Assembly (NCBI RefSeq): GCF_002706425.1
Contig: NZ_CP017713.1
Location: forward strand, 1,736,001 to 1,800,000
From: Loigolactobacillus coryniformis subsp. coryniformis KCTC 3167 = DSM 20001
Lineage (GTDB): Bacteria; Bacillota; Bacilli; Lactobacillales; Lactobacillaceae
Length of the DNA stretch: 64,000 bases
Reading direction: 5' to 3'
Shown here piece by piece: positions 7,714 to 57,564 of the stretch. How positions within the stretch are numbered: position 1 is the first letter of the stretch; the number at the start of each line of letters is the position of its first letter. The position numbers and the translations under genes are program-made. Under the pieces are notes generated by a model. That model was not told where the DNA came from. It ran no database searches and worked only from the letters and a program-made list of their open reading frames with translations.

Positions 7714-8976
7714 CTATTTTTCGGCGAAAAAGACGGAATTGGCTGCTGCAGTGATCGCCAATTTAACGTGTTCAAACGTCAACCCACCTTGAATGTACAA
7801 TGTATACGGTGGCCGCAGTGGCCCATCAGCGGAAAGCTCCACACTGGCGCCCTGTACAAAGGTGCCCGCAGCCATAATGATCGGATCCTCATACCCAGCC
7901 ATTTCACTTGGAATTGGTGCGACAAAGGCATCGATCGGCGAAAACTGTTGAATCGCTTTCGCAAAAGTAACCATCGCATCCGCATTACCAAAGTTAACGG
8001 TTTGGATCAGATCCGTTCGCGGTGCTTGCCAAGTTGGTTGGACGTCTAAATTCAGTTGTGCTAATAAGGCCGCCGTAAAGATTGCACCTTTGATGGCTTC
8101 ACCAACTACATGGGGTGCTAAAAAGAAGCCTTGAAACATATCGCTTAAATTATTTAACGTGGCTGCTTCTTCAGCGCCAATACCAGGCACGGTCAGGGCA
8201 TAACCCACTTTTTCAACTAGGTCACGCCGACCAGCAATATAGCCACCCGTTTTAGCCAAACCGCCGCCAGGATTTTTAATCAGTGAGCCGGCCATTAAAT
8301 CAGCACCAACTGACAACGGTTCTTGTGTTTCCGAAAATTCACCGTAACAGTTGTCGACAAAAATCGTCACTTCTGGTGCTAGTTGCCGCACCGCTTTGAT
8401 CATTGCCGCAATTTCCGCCACCGTAAAGCTATCACGGCTGGCATAGCCGCGTGAACGCTGGATCGCAACGACTTTGGTTTGTGGCTTCAAATGCGCCGCA
8501 ATTTGATCAGTAGCCACTTTACCCGCAGCTGTCAACGGTACATAATCAAAACCGATTCCAAATTCTTTTAACGAGCCCACGCCGTCACCGGCAACGCCAA
8601 TGACCTCTTGTAACGTATCATAAGGCATCCCCGTCAAATATAATAGTTCATCACCAGGCCGTAACAAGCCAAAGAAGGCCGTTCCGATCGCATGGGTACC
8701 AGAAACAAACTGCGGCCGTACAATTGCAGCCTCGCCACCAAAAGCTTGCGCATAGACCGCATCGAGCTGATCACGGCCTTCATCGTCATAACCATAACCA
8801 GTTGTACCCGCAAAACTTGCAGTCGCTACCCGCTGATCACGAAATGCACGCAAAACTTTGTGTTGATTATATAGTACTCGTGCACTGATTTTAGCCAATT
8901 CTGGTTGAATTTGTTGATCAACTTGCGTGACCAATGCTGCTAATTTAGGATCAATTTGTTGCCAATTTTCTTCCAT
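7714..8976 (-). CDS. PLP-dependent enzyme of the aluminium-resistance / methionine gamma-lyase-like family
   Basis: A 420-residue fold-type I PLP enzyme like Bacillus YnbB, which also sits between miaA/hfq and glnRA. It is related to cystathionine beta/gamma-lyases but its substrate is not established. Visible are TTGYGYDDEGRD near residue 65, FVSGTHAIGTAFFGLLRPGD (aldehyde-binding region), IFVDNCYGEF (cofactor-ring Asp) and SLIKNPGGGLAKTGGYIAG with the candidate PLP lysine. ATG at 8976 has AGAGGAAG upstream. A copy of the intergenic repeat box directly precedes that ribosome site. Confidence 0.88.
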   Translation of the reverse strand: MEENWQQIDPKLAALVTQVDQQIQPELAKISARVLYNQHKVLRAFRDQRVATASFAGTTGYGYDDEGRDQLDAVYAQAFGGEAAIVRPQFVSGTHAIGTAFFGLLRPGDELLYLTGMPYDTLQEVIGVAGDGVGSLKEFGIGFDYVPLTAAGKVATDQIAAHLKPQTKVVAIQRSRGYASRDSFTVAEIAAMIKAVRQLAPEVTIFVDNCYGEFSETQEPLSVGADLMAGSLIKNPGGGLAKTGGYIAGRRDLVEKVGYALTVPGIGAEEAATLNNLSDMFQGFFLAPHVVGEAIKGAIFTAALLAQLNLDVQPTWQAPRTDLIQTVNFGNADAMVTFAKAIQQFSPIDAFVAPIPSEMAGYEDPIIMAAGTFVQGASVELSADGPLRPPYTLYIQGGLTFEHVKLAITAAANSVFFAEK

Positions 8977-8986
8977 GATGATCTTC

Positions 8987-9038
8987 CTCTACTCCACAAT
9001 AAGTGGTTAATTTTTCGTACCAAAAATTTCTGGTGCTA
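8987..9038 (-). repeat. Intergenic repeat family, 3' modules (ynbB-like copy)
   Basis: Read on the minus strand: hairpin AATTTTT-GGTAC-GAAAAATT, then tiny stem ACCAC-TTATT-GTGG, then AGTAGAGGAAG, the gene's ribosome site. This corresponds to the last two modules of the element described at 45799-46139. Confidence 0.7.
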
Positions 9039-9092
9039 TCGACGATACTATTTTGATCACTACAATCTTACCTATCAAAAACACGGCTTTGT

Positions 9093-13596: not shown

Positions 13597-13721
13597 AATT
13601 GTTGGCACCAAAATCATCCACTACTGTGGCGTAATGCCATACCTTTGTTGTGCCTGGTTGCGGTCATTAAAATGGCGGCGCTCGGAACATCAAAATTATC
13701 CACTATATGGAGTAGAGAAGG
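13597..13721 (+). repeat. Intergenic repeat family, full copy upstream of the SMR gene
   Basis: Order on the plus strand: tiny stem CCAC-TACT-GTGG at 13618-13629, then GCCAT (13634-13638) pairing with ATGGC (13672-13676) around a variable hairpin, then CTCGGAACATC, then tiny stem TCCA-CTAT-ATGGA and GTAGAGAAGG as the ribosome site. The GCCAT/ATGGC pair replaces GGCCAT/ATGGTC of other copies with pairing kept. Upstream (13314-13596) I see only the rpmG dyad and decayed hairpins such as TTGGTTGTACCAA, no gene. Confidence 0.75.
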
Positions 13722-25300: not shown

Positions 25301-25311
25301 ATTGCACCCTC

Positions 25312-25440
25312 CTACGCCACATATAGTGGATTATTTTTTGTTTCAAAAAATTTCTGATGTTCCGGACGGTGACCATTCTTGTGGCAAAATTCTGTCGCAA
25401 GAAACATGGCCCTACGCCACATATGGTGGATTATTTTTCT
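25312..25440 (-). repeat. Intergenic repeat family, full copy with doubled 3' box (liaF)
   Basis: Minus strand: a first tiny-stem box (TAATCCACCATATGTGGCG, 25436-25414), then GGCCAT/ATGGTC around a CTTG...CAAG hairpin, then ACCGTCCGGAACATC, hairpin ATTTTTTG-AAA-CAAAAAAT, and a second copy of the box (TAATCCACTATATGTGGCG) joined to GTAGGAGG, the liaF ribosome site. The two boxes are direct repeats about 101 bp apart. Between this element and greA (25441-25649) I see only a weak TATACT and no gene. Confidence 0.8.
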
Positions 25441-30863: not shown

Positions 30864-30874
30864 GAGGAGCAAAT

Positions 30875-30917
30875 TCCTTTCTACTTCACAATTAAGGATG
30901 GTTTCTAATAACTCGTG
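30875..30917 (-). repeat. Repeat-family tail module before pheT
   Basis: Minus strand CCTTAATTGTGAAGTAGAAAGGA is followed, with no further 5' domain, by the pheT start. The same 23 bases occur before yidC at 35535-35557. Tiny stem CTT-N7-AAG, or CCTT pairing with AAGG of the ribosome site. Confidence 0.7.
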
Positions 30918-30935: not shown

Positions 30936-31982
30936 TTATGCTTCAGTAAATTGACTGAGGAAGCGAATATCATTTTGATAGAATTGCCGAATATCGTCGA
31001 TGCCGTATTTCAACATTGCAAAACGATCGATCCCCAGACCAAAAGCAAAACCGCCGTACTTAACTGGATCAACGCCCGCTGCCTTCAATACGTTCGGATG
31101 AGTCATACCCGCACCTAATACTTCGATCCAACCAGAATGTTTGCAGACATCACAGCCCACGCCGTTACATTTGAAGCAGGAAATATCAACTTCTACTGAT
31201 GGTTCCGTGAATGGGAAATAACTTGGTCGGAAACGAATTTTTCGTTCGGCACCAAAGAATTGGCGAATGGCAAAGGACAAAGTACCCTTCAAATCAGCCA
31301 TTGTCACATGTTCGCCAATATATTGGCCTTCCATTTGGAAGAATTGATGTGAATGGGTAGCATCATCAGTGTCGCGGCGGTAAACGCGCCCAGGGCCGAT
31401 CATTTTCATTGGGCCTGTACTGAAGTCATGTTGTTCCAACGTCCGCGCTTCATCTGGTGACATATGCGTCCGCATTAAAATATCTTTATTGATGTAGAAT
31501 GTATCTTGCATATCGCGAGCGGGATGATCTTTCGGCATATTCAGCTTTTCAAAATTATATTTTTCTTCTTCGACTTCATAACCTAAGACGACTTTAAAGC
31601 CCATCCCTAAGAAAACTGATTCCAAAGTTTCCACCGTTTGCATGATCACATGGTGCGTGCCTTGTTTAACTGGGGTACCTGGTAAAGTAACATCCAATTT
31701 TTCTTGAGCTAATTGATGTTCAATCTTGGCTGTTTCTAATGCTTGTTTGCGTGTTTCAATCGATTCAGTCAACGCATCGCGCACTTTATTAGCAAAACTA
31801 CCAACAGCAGGACGTTCTTCCTTAGCTAAATCACGCATACCGCGTAAAACTTCGGTGATTGGTCCTTTTTTACCAAGCAAATTAACCCGAATATCATTTA
31901 ATTGCTTTAAGTCGTCACTTTTTTCGATTTCTTTGATACCCTGCTTTTGCAAGGCAACTAACTTATCTTGTAAACTACTCAT
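30936..31982 (-). CDS. pheS: Phenylalanyl-tRNA synthetase, alpha subunit
   Basis: 348 residues. Class II catalytic subunit. N-terminal coiled coil (about residues 1-90), then motif 2 around [24 protein letters not shown], the Phe-site region [17 protein letters not shown] and motif 3 [18 protein letters not shown]. Cys-rich [17 protein letters not shown] is also typical. ATG at 31982 follows GAGGAG. Controlled by the T-box leader upstream. Confidence 0.97.
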
Positions 31983-31989
31983 AAATTAA

Positions 31990-32015
31990 ACTCCTCTACT
32001 CCACAAATAGTGGAT
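31990..32015 (-). repeat. Repeat-family tail module before pheS
   Basis: Minus strand TTATCCAC-TATTT-GTGGAGTAGAGGAG lies between the T-box terminator and the pheS start and contains the ribosome site. Matches the boxes before liaF, the SMR gene and the DUF1801 gene. Confidence 0.7.
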
Positions 32016-32033
32016 AATTTATATATTGGGGTA

Positions 32034-32285
32034 TAAAAAAAGCCCCATCCCTAAATTCAAGGGACGAGGCATCGCGTTACCACCCTAGTTCATAAGCAAT
32101 CGAAATCACTTATACACTCAGTCAGGGTAACGGTCTGTGCCGGAACTTTTTTTGTATTTACGCCCAAAGTCGACTCCGGAAGTGAATTCAACGTTTAGCC
32201 GTGATCGTTTTTCCAACATTTAAACGATTTTCTGTACTGAGCCGGAACGTTTACTATTTTCCATCAACGTCTTTCTTGGTATATT
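32034..32285 (-). ncRNA. T-box leader of pheST
   Basis: The T-box core AGGGTGGTAACGCG is at 32086-32073 on the minus strand, followed by the terminator hairpin GCCTCGTCCC ... GGGATGGGGC and seven T (32070-32034). About 190 bases of structured leader precede it. Uncharged tRNA-Phe should stabilise the antiterminator and allow pheST transcription. I could not fix the specifier codon with certainty. Confidence 0.9.
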
Positions 32286-35409: not shown

Positions 35410-35557
35410 TATCAAGGCTTTTGTGTACCACAAAGGTAACTTTAGCCATGTTTCATCTTGGCGGGCTACGCCTTAGTTGAATGGTCAGCGCCCGTAACAT
35501 CAGCATTTATTAGCATCTTTTGCTAATAAATCAACCTTAATTGTGAAGTAGAAAGGA
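35410..35557 (+). repeat. Intergenic repeat family, full copy upstream of yidC
   Basis: Plus strand: an upstream hairpin CTTTTGTG-TAC-CACAAAGG with TAACTTTA, then GCCAT (35445-35449) pairing with ATGGT (35481-35485) around TCTTGGCG...CGCCTTAGTTGA, then CGTAACATC, hairpin ATTTATTAGC / GCTAATAAAT (35506-35531), AACC, and the tail CCTTAATTGTGAAGTAGAAAGG. Nothing gene-like in 35281-35409. Confidence 0.75.
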
Positions 35558-35571
35558 ACTAAACCACGAAC

Positions 35572-36504
35572 ATGAAGCGAATTAAACGTCTGCTCAGTTA
35601 TGGTGGACTTTTCACGGTATTAACGCTATTATTGTCTGCTTGTACGAACACACAAACCCATCGAACACCACCAACTGGCTTTCTTTATGGGCCAATCTAT
35701 CATTGGTTAGGCTTACCAATGCAACACTTGATCACTTGGATTGCTAAATTATTTGGTAATCCACCTAACTACGGTTGGGCGATTCTATTGATCACCTTGA
35801 TCGTGCGTTTAGTCTTATTACCACTGATGCTCAGCCAATCAAAGAGTACGTTAAGGCAGCAGCACCGGCGCGAAGCCATTAAGCCGCAATTAGATGATAT
35901 TCAAAAACGGCAAGCGGCGGCAACAACGCCCGAAGAAAAAGCTGCTTTAAGTCAAGAAATGATGACGACTATGAAAGAAAATGGCGTCAGCATGACTGGT
36001 GGTATTGGCTGTTTACCATTACTTATCCAGTTGCCTGTATTCTCGGCCTTGTATATGGCGATCCAATACAGTCCAGCCATTTTCAAAAGTACGTTCTTAG
36101 GAATTAGTTTGGGACATACCAACCTGATCATTGCCATTCTAGCTGGATTAACCTACGTCTTGCAGGGTTATCTCTCCTTAGTTGGCTTACCGGCTAGCCA
36201 GAAGAAGCAGATGCAAACAATGATGATGATGAGTCCCGTGATGACCTTCTTCATCGCATTAGTTTCCCCAGCTGGCTTAGGCCTCTACTTCTTTGCCGGT
36301 GGGATCTTGGCGATTTTCCAAACCCTGATCACCAACTTCTACTATATGCCACGGATCAAAGCTGAGGTGGCGGCAGATCTTAAGAAAAATCCGCCTAAGC
36401 CAGTAGCTAAGACCGTGATCACGCCGAAACCGAAACCTATTCAGGCAACTGAAAGCAAACCTAAACGCAATCGGAATGCCGGCAAGCAACAACATCATAA
36501 ATAA
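35572..36504 (+). CDS. yidC: Membrane protein insertase YidC/Oxa1
   Basis: 310 residues. Inserts membrane proteins, alone or with Sec. N-terminal lipoprotein signal with lipobox LLLSAC (Cys about residue 23), a short outside segment, then five membrane helices. Conserved insertase-groove Arg in LLITLIVRLVLLPLM, Gly-rich IGCLPLLIQLPVFSALYMAI, and a basic C-terminal tail (KPKRNRNAGKQQHHK) of the ribosome-binding YidC2 type. The ribosome site AAAGGA is part of the repeat-family tail and rather far (about 15 bases) from the ATG. Confidence 0.95.
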   Translation: MKRIKRLLSYGGLFTVLTLLLSACTNTQTHRTPPTGFLYGPIYHWLGLPMQHLITWIAKLFGNPPNYGWAILLITLIVRLVLLPLMLSQSKSTLRQQHRREAIKPQLDDIQKRQAAATTPEEKAALSQEMMTTMKENGVSMTGGIGCLPLLIQLPVFSALYMAIQYSPAIFKSTFLGISLGHTNLIIAILAGLTYVLQGYLSLVGLPASQKKQMQTMMMMSPVMTFFIALVSPAGLGLYFFAGGILAIFQTLITNFYYMPRIKAEVAADLKKNPPKPVAKTVITPKPKPIQATESKPKRNRNAGKQQHHK

Positions 36505-44699: not shown

Positions 44700-45437
44700 T
44701 TAAGCTTTTTCTGCGGTAAAGAACCAGCGAACGCTGTCGGCCGCAACCGCACTTTTACCAAAATCAGCACTGACCTGTACGTTTTTAAAGCCGCTATCCT
44801 GCAGTGCCTGCTTGATATCAACCAATGGATAAGTCCGCTCGCGATGTAATTCGCTTAATGCTTGATAGCCTTGAATCGACTCATCCCAAACAAAGAACGT
44901 TAGATCATGTTCGATCGAATGCGGCTGTTCGCCTAAATAACTGGTCCACATAAACGCAGTCGTTTCATTTTTGTAATTGTACATATAGCCCGGGAATAGT
45001 TCATCCATTTGGTACAGTGAATGCATATCAAATAAAAAGCGGCCGCCGCTAACTAAATGTTGTGCGACTTGCTGAAAAACAGTTGTGACATCTGCCAAAT
45101 TAGGCATATAGCACAATGAATCGTCTAAGCAAGTCACCAATTCGTAATCGTCCAAGCCATCGAGTTCACGCATATCGCCTTGTACCAGAGCCATTGAGAC
45201 ATCCGCCTCAGTTGCATTTTGTTGCGCCACCGTTAACATATCCATTGATAAATCAAAACCGGTAACGTCATAACCGGCTTGGGCCAATTTAGTGGCTAAA
45301 ATCCCCGTACCGCAGGCTAACTCTAAGGTTCGCGGCTGCGGCCGGCCAGCATTCTGCGCAACAAAAGAAAGCCACTGATCATAAAGATCAGTGTCCATCA
45401 TTTCATCATATAAAGTGGCAAATGTTTGATAGATCAT
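44700..45437 (-). CDS. Class I SAM-dependent methyltransferase
   Basis: 245 residues. Motif I ELACGTGILATKLAQ, motif II GFDLSMDMLTVAQQ, GDMRELDGLDDYELVTCLDDSLCYM and a C-terminal beta region. Always found after rsfS in this Firmicutes cluster (YqeM type); substrate not known. Start ATG 45437 overlaps the rsfS stop as ATGA; an upstream in-frame ATG at 45449 lies within rsfS and is less likely. Confidence 0.92.
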   Translation of the reverse strand: MIYQTFATLYDEMMDTDLYDQWLSFVAQNAGRPQPRTLELACGTGILATKLAQAGYDVTGFDLSMDMLTVAQQNATEADVSMALVQGDMRELDGLDDYELVTCLDDSLCYMPNLADVTTVFQQVAQHLVSGGRFLFDMHSLYQMDELFPGYMYNYKNETTAFMWTSYLGEQPHSIEHDLTFFVWDESIQGYQALSELHRERTYPLVDIKQALQDSGFKNVQVSADFGKSAVAADSVRWFFTAEKA

Positions 45438-45790
45438 GCTTCGATCCACGCCGTTAAATCAACATTCTCAGCGTTGGCCCATAATTTTTCCAAATTATAA
45501 TAAGCCCGTTCTTCAGGATTGAAGATATTAACGACCACATCACCGAGGTCAAGCAGAACCCATTTATCGGAATTCTTACCTTCAACTCGTTTGACCGTGA
45601 TGCCCGCGTCCTCTTCTTTTTCCATAATTTCTTCTAAAATGGCGTCCATTTGGCGTTTGGACCCACCTTGCATGACAACAAAATAGTCAGCCAATAAACT
45701 GACCTCACGGACGTCTAAGGCAATAATATCTTCTGCGCGTTTACTATCTGCCGCACGGACAGCAATCTCTAAAATTTCTTTACTGTTCAA
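45434..45790 (-). CDS. rsfS: Ribosomal silencing factor RsfS
   Basis: 118 residues. Binds L14 and blocks subunit joining in starvation. Typical sequence IIALDVREVSLLADYFVVMQGGSKRQMDAI ... GKNSDKWVLLDLGDVVVNIFNPEERAYYNLEKLW. Start is TTG at 45790, 8 bases after AGGAG. The usual tight link to yqeK is broken by a 353-bp array of intergenic repeats, the last of which carries the ribosome site. Confidence 0.95.
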   Translation of the reverse strand: MNSKEILEIAVRAADSKRAEDIIALDVREVSLLADYFVVMQGGSKRQMDAILEEIMEKEEDAGITVKRVEGKNSDKWVLLDLGDVVVNIFNPEERAYYNLEKLWANAENVDLTAWIEA

Positions 45791-45798
45791 AATAGTGC

Positions 45799-46139
45799 TC
45801 CTATTCTACGATTAAGGTTATTTATTAGCATCAACCGCTAATAAATCCAGATGTTCCAGACGGTGACCATTCAACTATGGCTTAATTCGCCAAGTTGAAA
45901 CATGGCCCTATTCTACGATTAAGGTTATTTATTAGCATCAACCGCTAATAAATCCGGATGTTCCAGACGGTGCGACTTGGACTTGCCGGGTTATGGCTTA
46001 GTCCAATCAACATCGGTAGGGTAAGTTCTAGTTAGCAAATATTCTTAATATTAAATACTAACCTAATTAAGGTTGTCAAAAAATGAGTGACAGTGACTAT
46101 TCAACTATGGCCTAGTTCGCCAAGTTGAAACATGGCCCT
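45799..46139 (-). repeat. Tandem array of three intergenic repeat units (rsfS)
   Basis: Fills the whole gap between yqeK and rsfS. A 66-bp stretch is directly repeated with one mismatch (45800-45865 and 45907-45972), containing GGAACATC, hairpin TTTATTAGC / GCTAATAAA and CCTTAATCGTAGAATAGG. A 40-bp stretch with GGCCATGTTTCAACTTGGCG repeats with two mismatches (45870-45909 and 46100-46139). In the proximal unit GGCCAT (45907-45902) pairs with ATGGTC (45870-45865) around CAACTTGGC / GCCATAGTTG. The middle unit has the alternative GAACTTAC 5' domain, and the distal one is decayed (ATAGTC). Confidence 0.88.
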
Positions 46140-57452: not shown

Positions 57453-57454
57453 TC

Positions 57455-57564
57455 CATTTCACAATTAAAATTGTTTATTAGCACAAACTGCTAATAAATT
57501 TAGACGTTCCAGAGAACTTGCCGAATTATAGTTTGATCCAATCGACCTCGGCAAGTAAGTTCCA
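57455..57564 (-). repeat. Intergenic repeat family, second-subtype copy upstream of nrdR
   Basis: Minus strand: GGAACTTACTTGCCGAGGTCG ... CGGCAAGTTC stem, CTGGAACGTC, hairpin TTTATTAGC-AGTTTGT-GCTAATAAA, then TTTTAATTGTGAAATGGAG with the ribosome site. The 5' domain differs from GGCCAT copies but matches the middle unit of the rsfS array (GAACTTAC, GATTGGA, CCGGCAAGT). Further up, 57565-57780 holds a dyad AAACTAGG / CCTAGTTT (57618-57668) with a T run on the plus strand, and no gene. Confidence 0.78.

Follow-up and report, generated by a model that had tools for sequence, protein, structure and literature searches.

A hairpin-bearing repeat at ribosome sites of Loigolactobacillus coryniformis is probably a small mobile DNA element

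What places the same folded segment directly in front of the ribosome sites of unrelated genes? The question is posed by an rsfS-like locus in a 64,000-nucleotide stretch of the Loigolactobacillus coryniformis subsp. coryniformis KCTC 3167 genome (hereafter the window), where units of about 107 nt (range about 98-113 nt) stand in tandem before the gene. An initial annotation had taken the segment for a structured element shared by about ten genes and had offered translational control and mobility as explanations. Here, copies of the unit were compared within the window, throughout the genome and across related bacteria, and the outcome fits a small mobile repeat better than a riboswitch-like leader.

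Results

Units at the rsfS locus and elsewhere in the window

The complete unit nearest rsfS occupies positions 45800-45907 on the minus strand, with one flanking base on each side (108 bits, E 2.6e-20; all window units were scored with covariance model R1, filters off). It ends in ...GAATAG, followed directly by GAGCAC, the rsfS ribosome site, and the rsfS-like coding sequence downstream (45434-45790, minus) has orthologues of 74-86% identity in seven other genomes of the genus. A second tandem unit (45908-46137, minus) is split into a 3' half (about 45908-45972) and a 5' half (about 46087-46137) by a roughly 120-nt repeat of another family, M2, in opposite orientation. The previously described features, namely a 5' hairpin closed by GCCAT and ATGG, a variable AT-rich hairpin and a terminal TAG abutting the ribosome site, are all present at 45800-46137 (minus).

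The proposed list of ten host genes held up in part. Besides the rsfS units, a single unit lies before a yidC-like gene (35572-36504) at 35444-35552 (plus, 102.9 bits), a unit with a different AT hairpin before a liaF-like gene at 25311-25411 (minus, 64.1 bits; a copy of the unit's 3' tail, repeat D2, stands immediately upstream) and a degenerate unit before an nrdR-like gene at 57453-57557 (minus, 39.5 bits, E 3.1e-6). A weak unit at 8988-9088 (minus, 36.8 bits, E 1.1e-5) precedes the gene at 7714-8976. The possible decayed unit before an smr-like gene (13635-13716, plus) scored 17.4 bits at a non-significant E of 0.11, and no match at E <= 0.01 corresponded to the PBP or DUF1801 copy. Before pheS and pheT, the 3' tail module stands alone, at 31978-32022 (minus, repeat family D2), between a T-box leader and the pheS ribosome site, and at 30874-30904 (minus, inverted repeat I2, 94%), respectively. 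The T-box leader itself (32057-32276, minus), an L21 leader (497-569, minus) and a tRNA-Arg (728-801, plus) were ordinary Rfam/ARAGORN matches.

Copy number and tandem arrays

The expectation of many further copies was borne out, in related genera too. A blastn search with one unit returned 51 matches in the whole 2.95-Mb genome, and model R1 recognised 133 units at E <= 0.001 among the best 150 of 1668 candidates scored. R1 was built from 90 diverse copies (alignment A2), picked by an 8-mer similarity filter after a row selection in which 179 full-length rows were kept of 258 matches; 171 of the 179 (ends GC...TAG) were used, and the internal base N, introduced below, was readable in 117. Within the same best 150 of 1668, the 133 units fall into 77 stretches, a total that includes the interrupted rsfS array twice. 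Of these, 43 hold one unit, 17 two, 13 three, 3 four and 1 five, which makes 34 tandem stretches; 70 of the 77 end in TAG.

Units resemble each other more closely within arrays (92% over 74 pairs) than between arrays (72% over 2211 pairs), as calculated for 116 of the 133 units. Copies farthest from the gene are somewhat more decayed, with 0.744 at the gene and 0.694 in fourth place, the cases being few. Many left flanks of arrays bear a copy of the tail, often a locus-specific one, which a duplication model explains equally well. Just upstream of the array before 437399 (L016), a region resembling a group II intron reverse transcriptase comes to its end, as recognised by eye.

Layout and fold of the unit

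From 5' to 3', the unit consists of GCCATG, hairpin H1, ATGG-W-CA-N-CG, AACATC, the AT-rich hairpin H2 and a tail (for example, ACCTTAATTGTGAAGTAG), followed by the ribosome site. H1 comes in two sequence types, CAACT...AGTTG and CTTGC...CAAG; the latter carries a fixed C-A mismatch (34 rows, columns 15-36) in an otherwise perfect hairpin. Mutual information and pair counts on alignment A2 yielded H1, H2 and a long-range helix, P2, in which the strand after H1 (columns 48-59) pairs with the tail (columns 115-125), enclosing H2. Covarying P2 pairs include 53-121 (C-G 55, U-A 25) and 57-117 (A-U 49, G-C 32, G-U 6 of 90 copies), with further pairs at 49-124, 58-116 and 59-115. The terminal TAG pairs with the internal strand and is not left unpaired.

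Helix P2 was missing from the fold first put forward, and its covariation alters that fold in two places. The tiny 3' hairpin drawn there is not the best-supported structure, the tail covarying with the internal strand (48-59/115-125) instead; the suggested two-base switch between ATGTTTC and GGAACAT shows no covariation, and covariation ties part of the segment to the tail instead (57-117). That pairing is under selection was supported: the covariation score was 0.262 versus 0.102 after shuffling and was reached by none of 500 shuffles, which ignore relatedness, in a test that leans towards structure, as the structure was partly derived from the same alignment. P2 was both discovered and counted on A2, except for a held-out check on 38 stretches described below; RNAalifold, run on 16 copies, recovered H2 and the base of H1 and not P2.

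The pairs of H2 in A2 comprise 841 Watson-Crick, 10 G-U and 5 A-C pairs, as compared with 40 G-U in 490 pairs for tRNA. This scarcity of wobble pairs hints at selection on DNA rather than RNA without proving it, and the argument is weak, as few pairs vary, the alignment program trims sequence and A-C pairs cannot show up in the tRNA control. When all of the named structure is counted, A-C pairs (86) are more numerous than G-U pairs (40), an excess due mainly to one hairpin subfamily that is misaligned. Terminal inverted repeats are absent, with 2.14 of 12 terminal positions matching versus 3.18 after shuffling (116 of the 133 units). A small-peptide reading from GCCATG was rejected; by eye, reading frames vary among copies.

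Position relative to ribosome sites

When stretches were classed by the base following the unit, a start codon lay 4-20 nt downstream in 62 of the 64 A/G-class stretches (A, n = 45; G, n = 19) and in 2 of the 13 T/C-class stretches, counting ORFs of at least 30 codons. The chance baseline in the same test, taken over all sites in the window, was 79 of 313 for TAGA and 68 of 246 for TAGG. One of the two A/G exceptions leads into another unit start and the other is the interrupted rsfS copy. A Shine-Dalgarno-like 4-mer was found in 59 of the 64 A/G stretches, the element's own AG counted. At rsfS, AAAG^GAG is the site interrupted, and the AG that ends the element restores the ribosome site sequence. 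Since the unit's 3' end reads ...RTAG, insertion into AAAG^GAG or before AGGAG leaves a ribosome site behind, which, judging by its letters, would still be working.

Genes behind units include typA, era, prfA, rbfA, smc, rsfS and yidC (named from translations) and have no evident common function. In the yidC leader, the unit lies downstream of a promoter-like sequence (read by eye) and is probably transcribed. The T/C-class stretches are oriented 5 plus and 8 minus; 8 of these 13 loci run with replication, taking the contig start as origin and a terminus at about 1.5 Mb (both assumed), which decides nothing. T-class copies sit in R3, a larger hairpin repeat that was also found in a copy lacking the unit.

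Empty sites and exact insertion

At the rsfS site, three sister genomes read AAAAGGAGC with no insert, where the window's genome has ATAAAGG-unit-GAGC. Of the other sister genomes (seven in all), two have a different leader, one has another repeat and one site was not located. That other repeat (L154, genome G007) has a similar layout, with GCC, a hairpin, GGACATCCG, an AT hairpin and a tail, and is flanked by two CTTAATTATGAAAAGGAGC copies. The yidC site is empty in four of eight genomes (G001, G002, G004 and G006); G003 retains a 3' remnant, G005 has an unrecognised leader ending in GTAG, G007 a nested array and the window's genome one unit.

Further pairs came from other loci. The empty site CTCAGAACCTG of L. 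iwatensis (L085) corresponds to CTCAGA-unit-AACCTG in L. backii (L117), the flanks being about 91% identical; in L. iwatensis, the junction of CTGCGGT and TAGCTAC is present both with and without a unit (L139); and in P. parvulus, filled and empty copies of a host repeat are neighbours (L080). Together, filled and empty sites indicate that insertion is exact, and they support the mobile-element alternative that had been named for the position beside the ribosome site. In the empty sites read, target duplication does not exceed one base: the flanking base N' stands on both sides of filled units and once in empty sites, and the left flank base equals the right flank base in 158 of 171 units.

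Complementarity between an internal base and the junction base

The outermost pair of P2 joins the internal base N to the first flanking base, N' (A2 column 125), which lies outside the unit. This pair (48-125) is A-U in 34, U-A in 30, C-G in 15, G-C in 1 and other in 10 of the 90 copies, so that N and its right-flank partner are complementary in 80 of them, compared with a mean of 30.7 and a maximum of 47 over 10,000 shuffles (relatedness ignored). The complementarity holds in both H1 types. It also holds in 34 of 38 stretches absent from A2 (shuffle maximum, 27); these are the scored portion of the 77 stretches, with 18 already represented in A2 and 21 not scorable. Copies that break the rule are 10 of the 90, along with loci L080, L060 and L064. 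Only one flanking base covaries, with the base 3' of H1, and left flanks vary.

Search for a mobilising enzyme

The Y1 transposase profile PF01797 had no match in the window's genome, with a positive E. coli control, and was unlinked to carriage of the unit (4 of 19 carriers versus 6 of 16 non-carriers). IS110 (PF02371) was found in 8 of 19 carriers versus 3 of 16 non-carriers, with two genes in the window's genome; no carrier link emerged, 11 of the 19 carriers having none. The Y2 transposase profile PF04986, typical of rolling-circle elements of the IS91/Helitron kind, matched none of 24 genomes, the control genomes being silent too. No autonomous copy was seen: all 63 matches to the 5'-end pattern listed for the window's genome lie inside model matches.

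Occurrence across genomes

Carriers amount to 19 of 301 sampled Lactobacillaceae genomes, in 6 of 40 genera, three of the carriers having a best E of only 1.7e-5 to 1.2e-4. In the order-level sample, the window's genome alone matched at E <= 1e-4 (1 of 295). Among the matches listed, carriers in Loigolactobacillus are backii, iwatensis, rennini, jiayinensis, zhaoyuanensis, binensis and bifermentans, and carriers elsewhere are Lapidilactobacillus bayanensis and Pediococcus damnosus, parvulus and ethanolidurans. A pattern scan returned at least 120 stretches, six of those listed coming from unrelated phyla (L061, L075, L079, L107, L113 and L122); a profile search gave no match at L061 or L122. 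Plasmid and phage collections, queried with one or two unit types, gave no match.

The lack of an Rfam counterpart, suspected from the start, was confirmed at gathering scores over the window and at E <= 1 for five loci, where nothing fell on the element and one weak match lay elsewhere. A literature search of open-licence papers found no description of the family.

Nested units and other small repeats

Units are nested in other units at the same point of H1, between GCCT and TAGTTGAATGG (L137 4629-4734, L130, L037, L048 and L146). The M2 repeat (119-122 nt) runs from a flanking T through GCGACTTGGACTT...CGA(T/C)AG to a second flanking T, lies at approximately 45966-46088 (minus) in the window and occurs repeatedly inside the main unit near N, mostly in opposite orientation (also L023, L169, L179, L220, L221, L255 and L261). 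Its ends follow the rule T, GCGACTTGGACT...AG, T, with ten copies having a recognised end.

A third repeat, M3 (about 44 nt), runs from T and GCGAYTCGGACT to TCGACATCGTYAG and T, the right-hand T being present in 8 of 9 recognised copies (loci L139, L140, L145, L038, L059, L087, L109, L125 and L131). It is inserted in a larger hairpin repeat as GGCT, GCGA...TYAG, TAATCC, a copy without M3 reading GGCTAATCC. M2 and M3 fail the N rule, N often being T beside an N' of T; the rule belongs to the main family only. R3, the host of T-class units, is a larger interspersed repeat resembling a two-way terminator (...AAAAAGC...CTGCGGTTAGC...GCTTTTT...; L139, L049, L034, L072, L086 and L099), and in Pediococcus damnosus R3 and unit are repeated in tandem with a period of 198 nt.

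Discussion

We consider the unit to be, more probably than not, a non-autonomous mobile DNA repeat with exact insertion and no terminal inverted repeats, whose A/G lineages lie in sense orientation at Shine-Dalgarno sites, and for which we propose a single-strand mechanism. The single-stranded element would fold into H1, H2 and P2, with the internal strand N-CG-x-C-Y-G-n-A-R-C-A paired to both the tail (TGYGRARTAG) and the flanking N'. Base N would thereby read the junction base, in the manner of guide bases at IS200/IS605 cleavage sites, and a trans-acting nuclease or recombinase would cut between TAG and N'. Tandem arrays could arise from repeated insertion at the self-like TAG-N' junction or from unequal recombination. 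It is by analogy with IS200/IS605 and REP systems that we infer a single-stranded fold guiding the cut.

These systems also supply the alternative that survives best, although we regard it as doubtful: the unit may be a REP- or IS200/IS605-derived miniature whose Y1 HUH transposase is divergent, lost or occasionally supplied by incoming elements. Hairpins at both ends, insertion without target duplication and a junction-reading internal base are consistent with such an origin, but PF01797 is without a match in the window's genome and without carrier association. The terminal GTAG resembles that of GTAG-tagged REPs (PMC8266576 and PMC3733652), and like REPs and BIMEs mobilised by TnpA-REP (RAYT), the unit is short, hairpin-forming, high-copy, intergenic and clustered, has GTAG beside a hairpin and is a repeat without a known gene of its own. 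However, REPs span 20-40 bp, bear their tag at the foot of the hairpin and lie for the most part 3' of coding regions (PMC3733652); they are single palindromes with an unpaired GTAG at one end, whereas the unit measures about 98-113 nt, has two hairpins and a long-range helix, and stands 5' of genes at the ribosome site; REP/RAYT systems rely on a Y1 transposase, and the window's genome has no PF01797 match. The text of PMC3733652 contains neither 'firmicutes' nor 'lactobacill'. IS200/IS605 elements and their palindrome-associated derivatives share with the unit the lack of target duplication, subterminal hairpins and complementarity between internal base and junction. Their guides, however, lie 5' of each palindrome (PMC8266576); these are tetranucleotides, combined with a fixed left target and a transposase, whereas here a single guide-like base is found on the 3' side of H1, the left hairpin, and no transposase was found.

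A cis-regulatory RNA leader, acting on translation or on processing or stability of the mRNA 5' end and selected gene by gene with spread as a secondary matter, was the other explanation initially offered and appears unlikely. Units are nearly always in sense orientation and abut the ribosome site, pairing is maintained while sequence varies and the yidC-leader unit, behind its promoter-like sequence, is probably transcribed, all of which such a leader would predict. Yet the same genes do without the unit in several sister species, T-class copies sit in other repeats away from ribosome sites, the host genes lack an evident common function and H2 has few G-U pairs; moreover, the pairing reaches a flanking base that changes with the insertion site.

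Distinctly unlikely, in our estimate, is that old leaders multiplied by tandem duplication and gene conversion under mainly vertical descent, with no present-day transposition. The greater likeness within arrays (92% versus 72%) and the common locus-specific tail copies in left flanks would follow from it; clean empty sites, nested insertions into other repeats and a scattered occurrence over genera argue against it. Finally, a minimal IS110 bridge-RNA derivative with the two hairpins as a shortened guide RNA is highly improbable, for although bridge-RNA IS110 elements likewise insert without duplication and read their site by base pairing, here with a core base, and two IS110 genes exist in the window's genome, 11 of the 19 carriers have no IS110 genes, no longer relative was seen, the known elements encode a recombinase, and the known core is a dinucleotide (PMC11208160) where the unit appears to have a core of one base of any kind.

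Within the preferred reading as a mobile repeat, the unit is assigned to none of the named classes, since REP, IS200/IS605, DDE-MITE and BOX each have a defining feature that it lacked when tested. The pneumococcal BOX, RUP and SPRITE repeats are small and interspersed, have predicted RNA structure and nest in one another (PMC3049150), and as small Lactobacillales repeats with predicted structure and nesting they resemble the unit; the likeness to BOX drawn at first is one of style alone: BOX has a variable number of boxB modules between fixed ends, boxA and boxC, whereas here, comparing layouts, the whole unit of about 107 nt repeats. Terminal inverted repeats of the RUP type are absent. MITEs of DDE transposons have terminal inverted repeats and a target duplication of at least two bases, neither of which the unit has; the name does apply if MITE is taken loosely to mean any small mobile repeat that is non-autonomous. 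The Beggiatoaceae TAACTGA direct repeats stand in tandem, only a few bases ahead of the start codons of genes unrelated to one another (PMC4679880), much as the unit does; they are seven bases long and, unlike the unit, have neither hairpins nor an insertion signature.

More tentatively, and as a possibility that we would not favour over its negation, the repeats of about 44, 107 and 120 nt may together form a new class of miniature mobile DNA that follows a rule of 'G-hairpin ... AG, then N'', with a shared junction base and an unrecognised enzyme. In the 107-nt family, N-N' pairing would sort A/G lineages to Shine-Dalgarno sites and T lineages to hairpin repeats, and the rebuilding of the entered ribosome site would amount to a safe-harbour strategy, of which no description was found in the open-licence literature searched.

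If our reading is true, a mobile repeat targets ribosome-binding sites, those of core genes included, and leaves them usable, which would provide a simple system for studying how small repeats pick harmless targets. It would also offer a pairing rule, linking element and junction, that a one-letter change could test. For comparative genomics, the unit carries a warning that conserved structured leaders can be mobile DNA.
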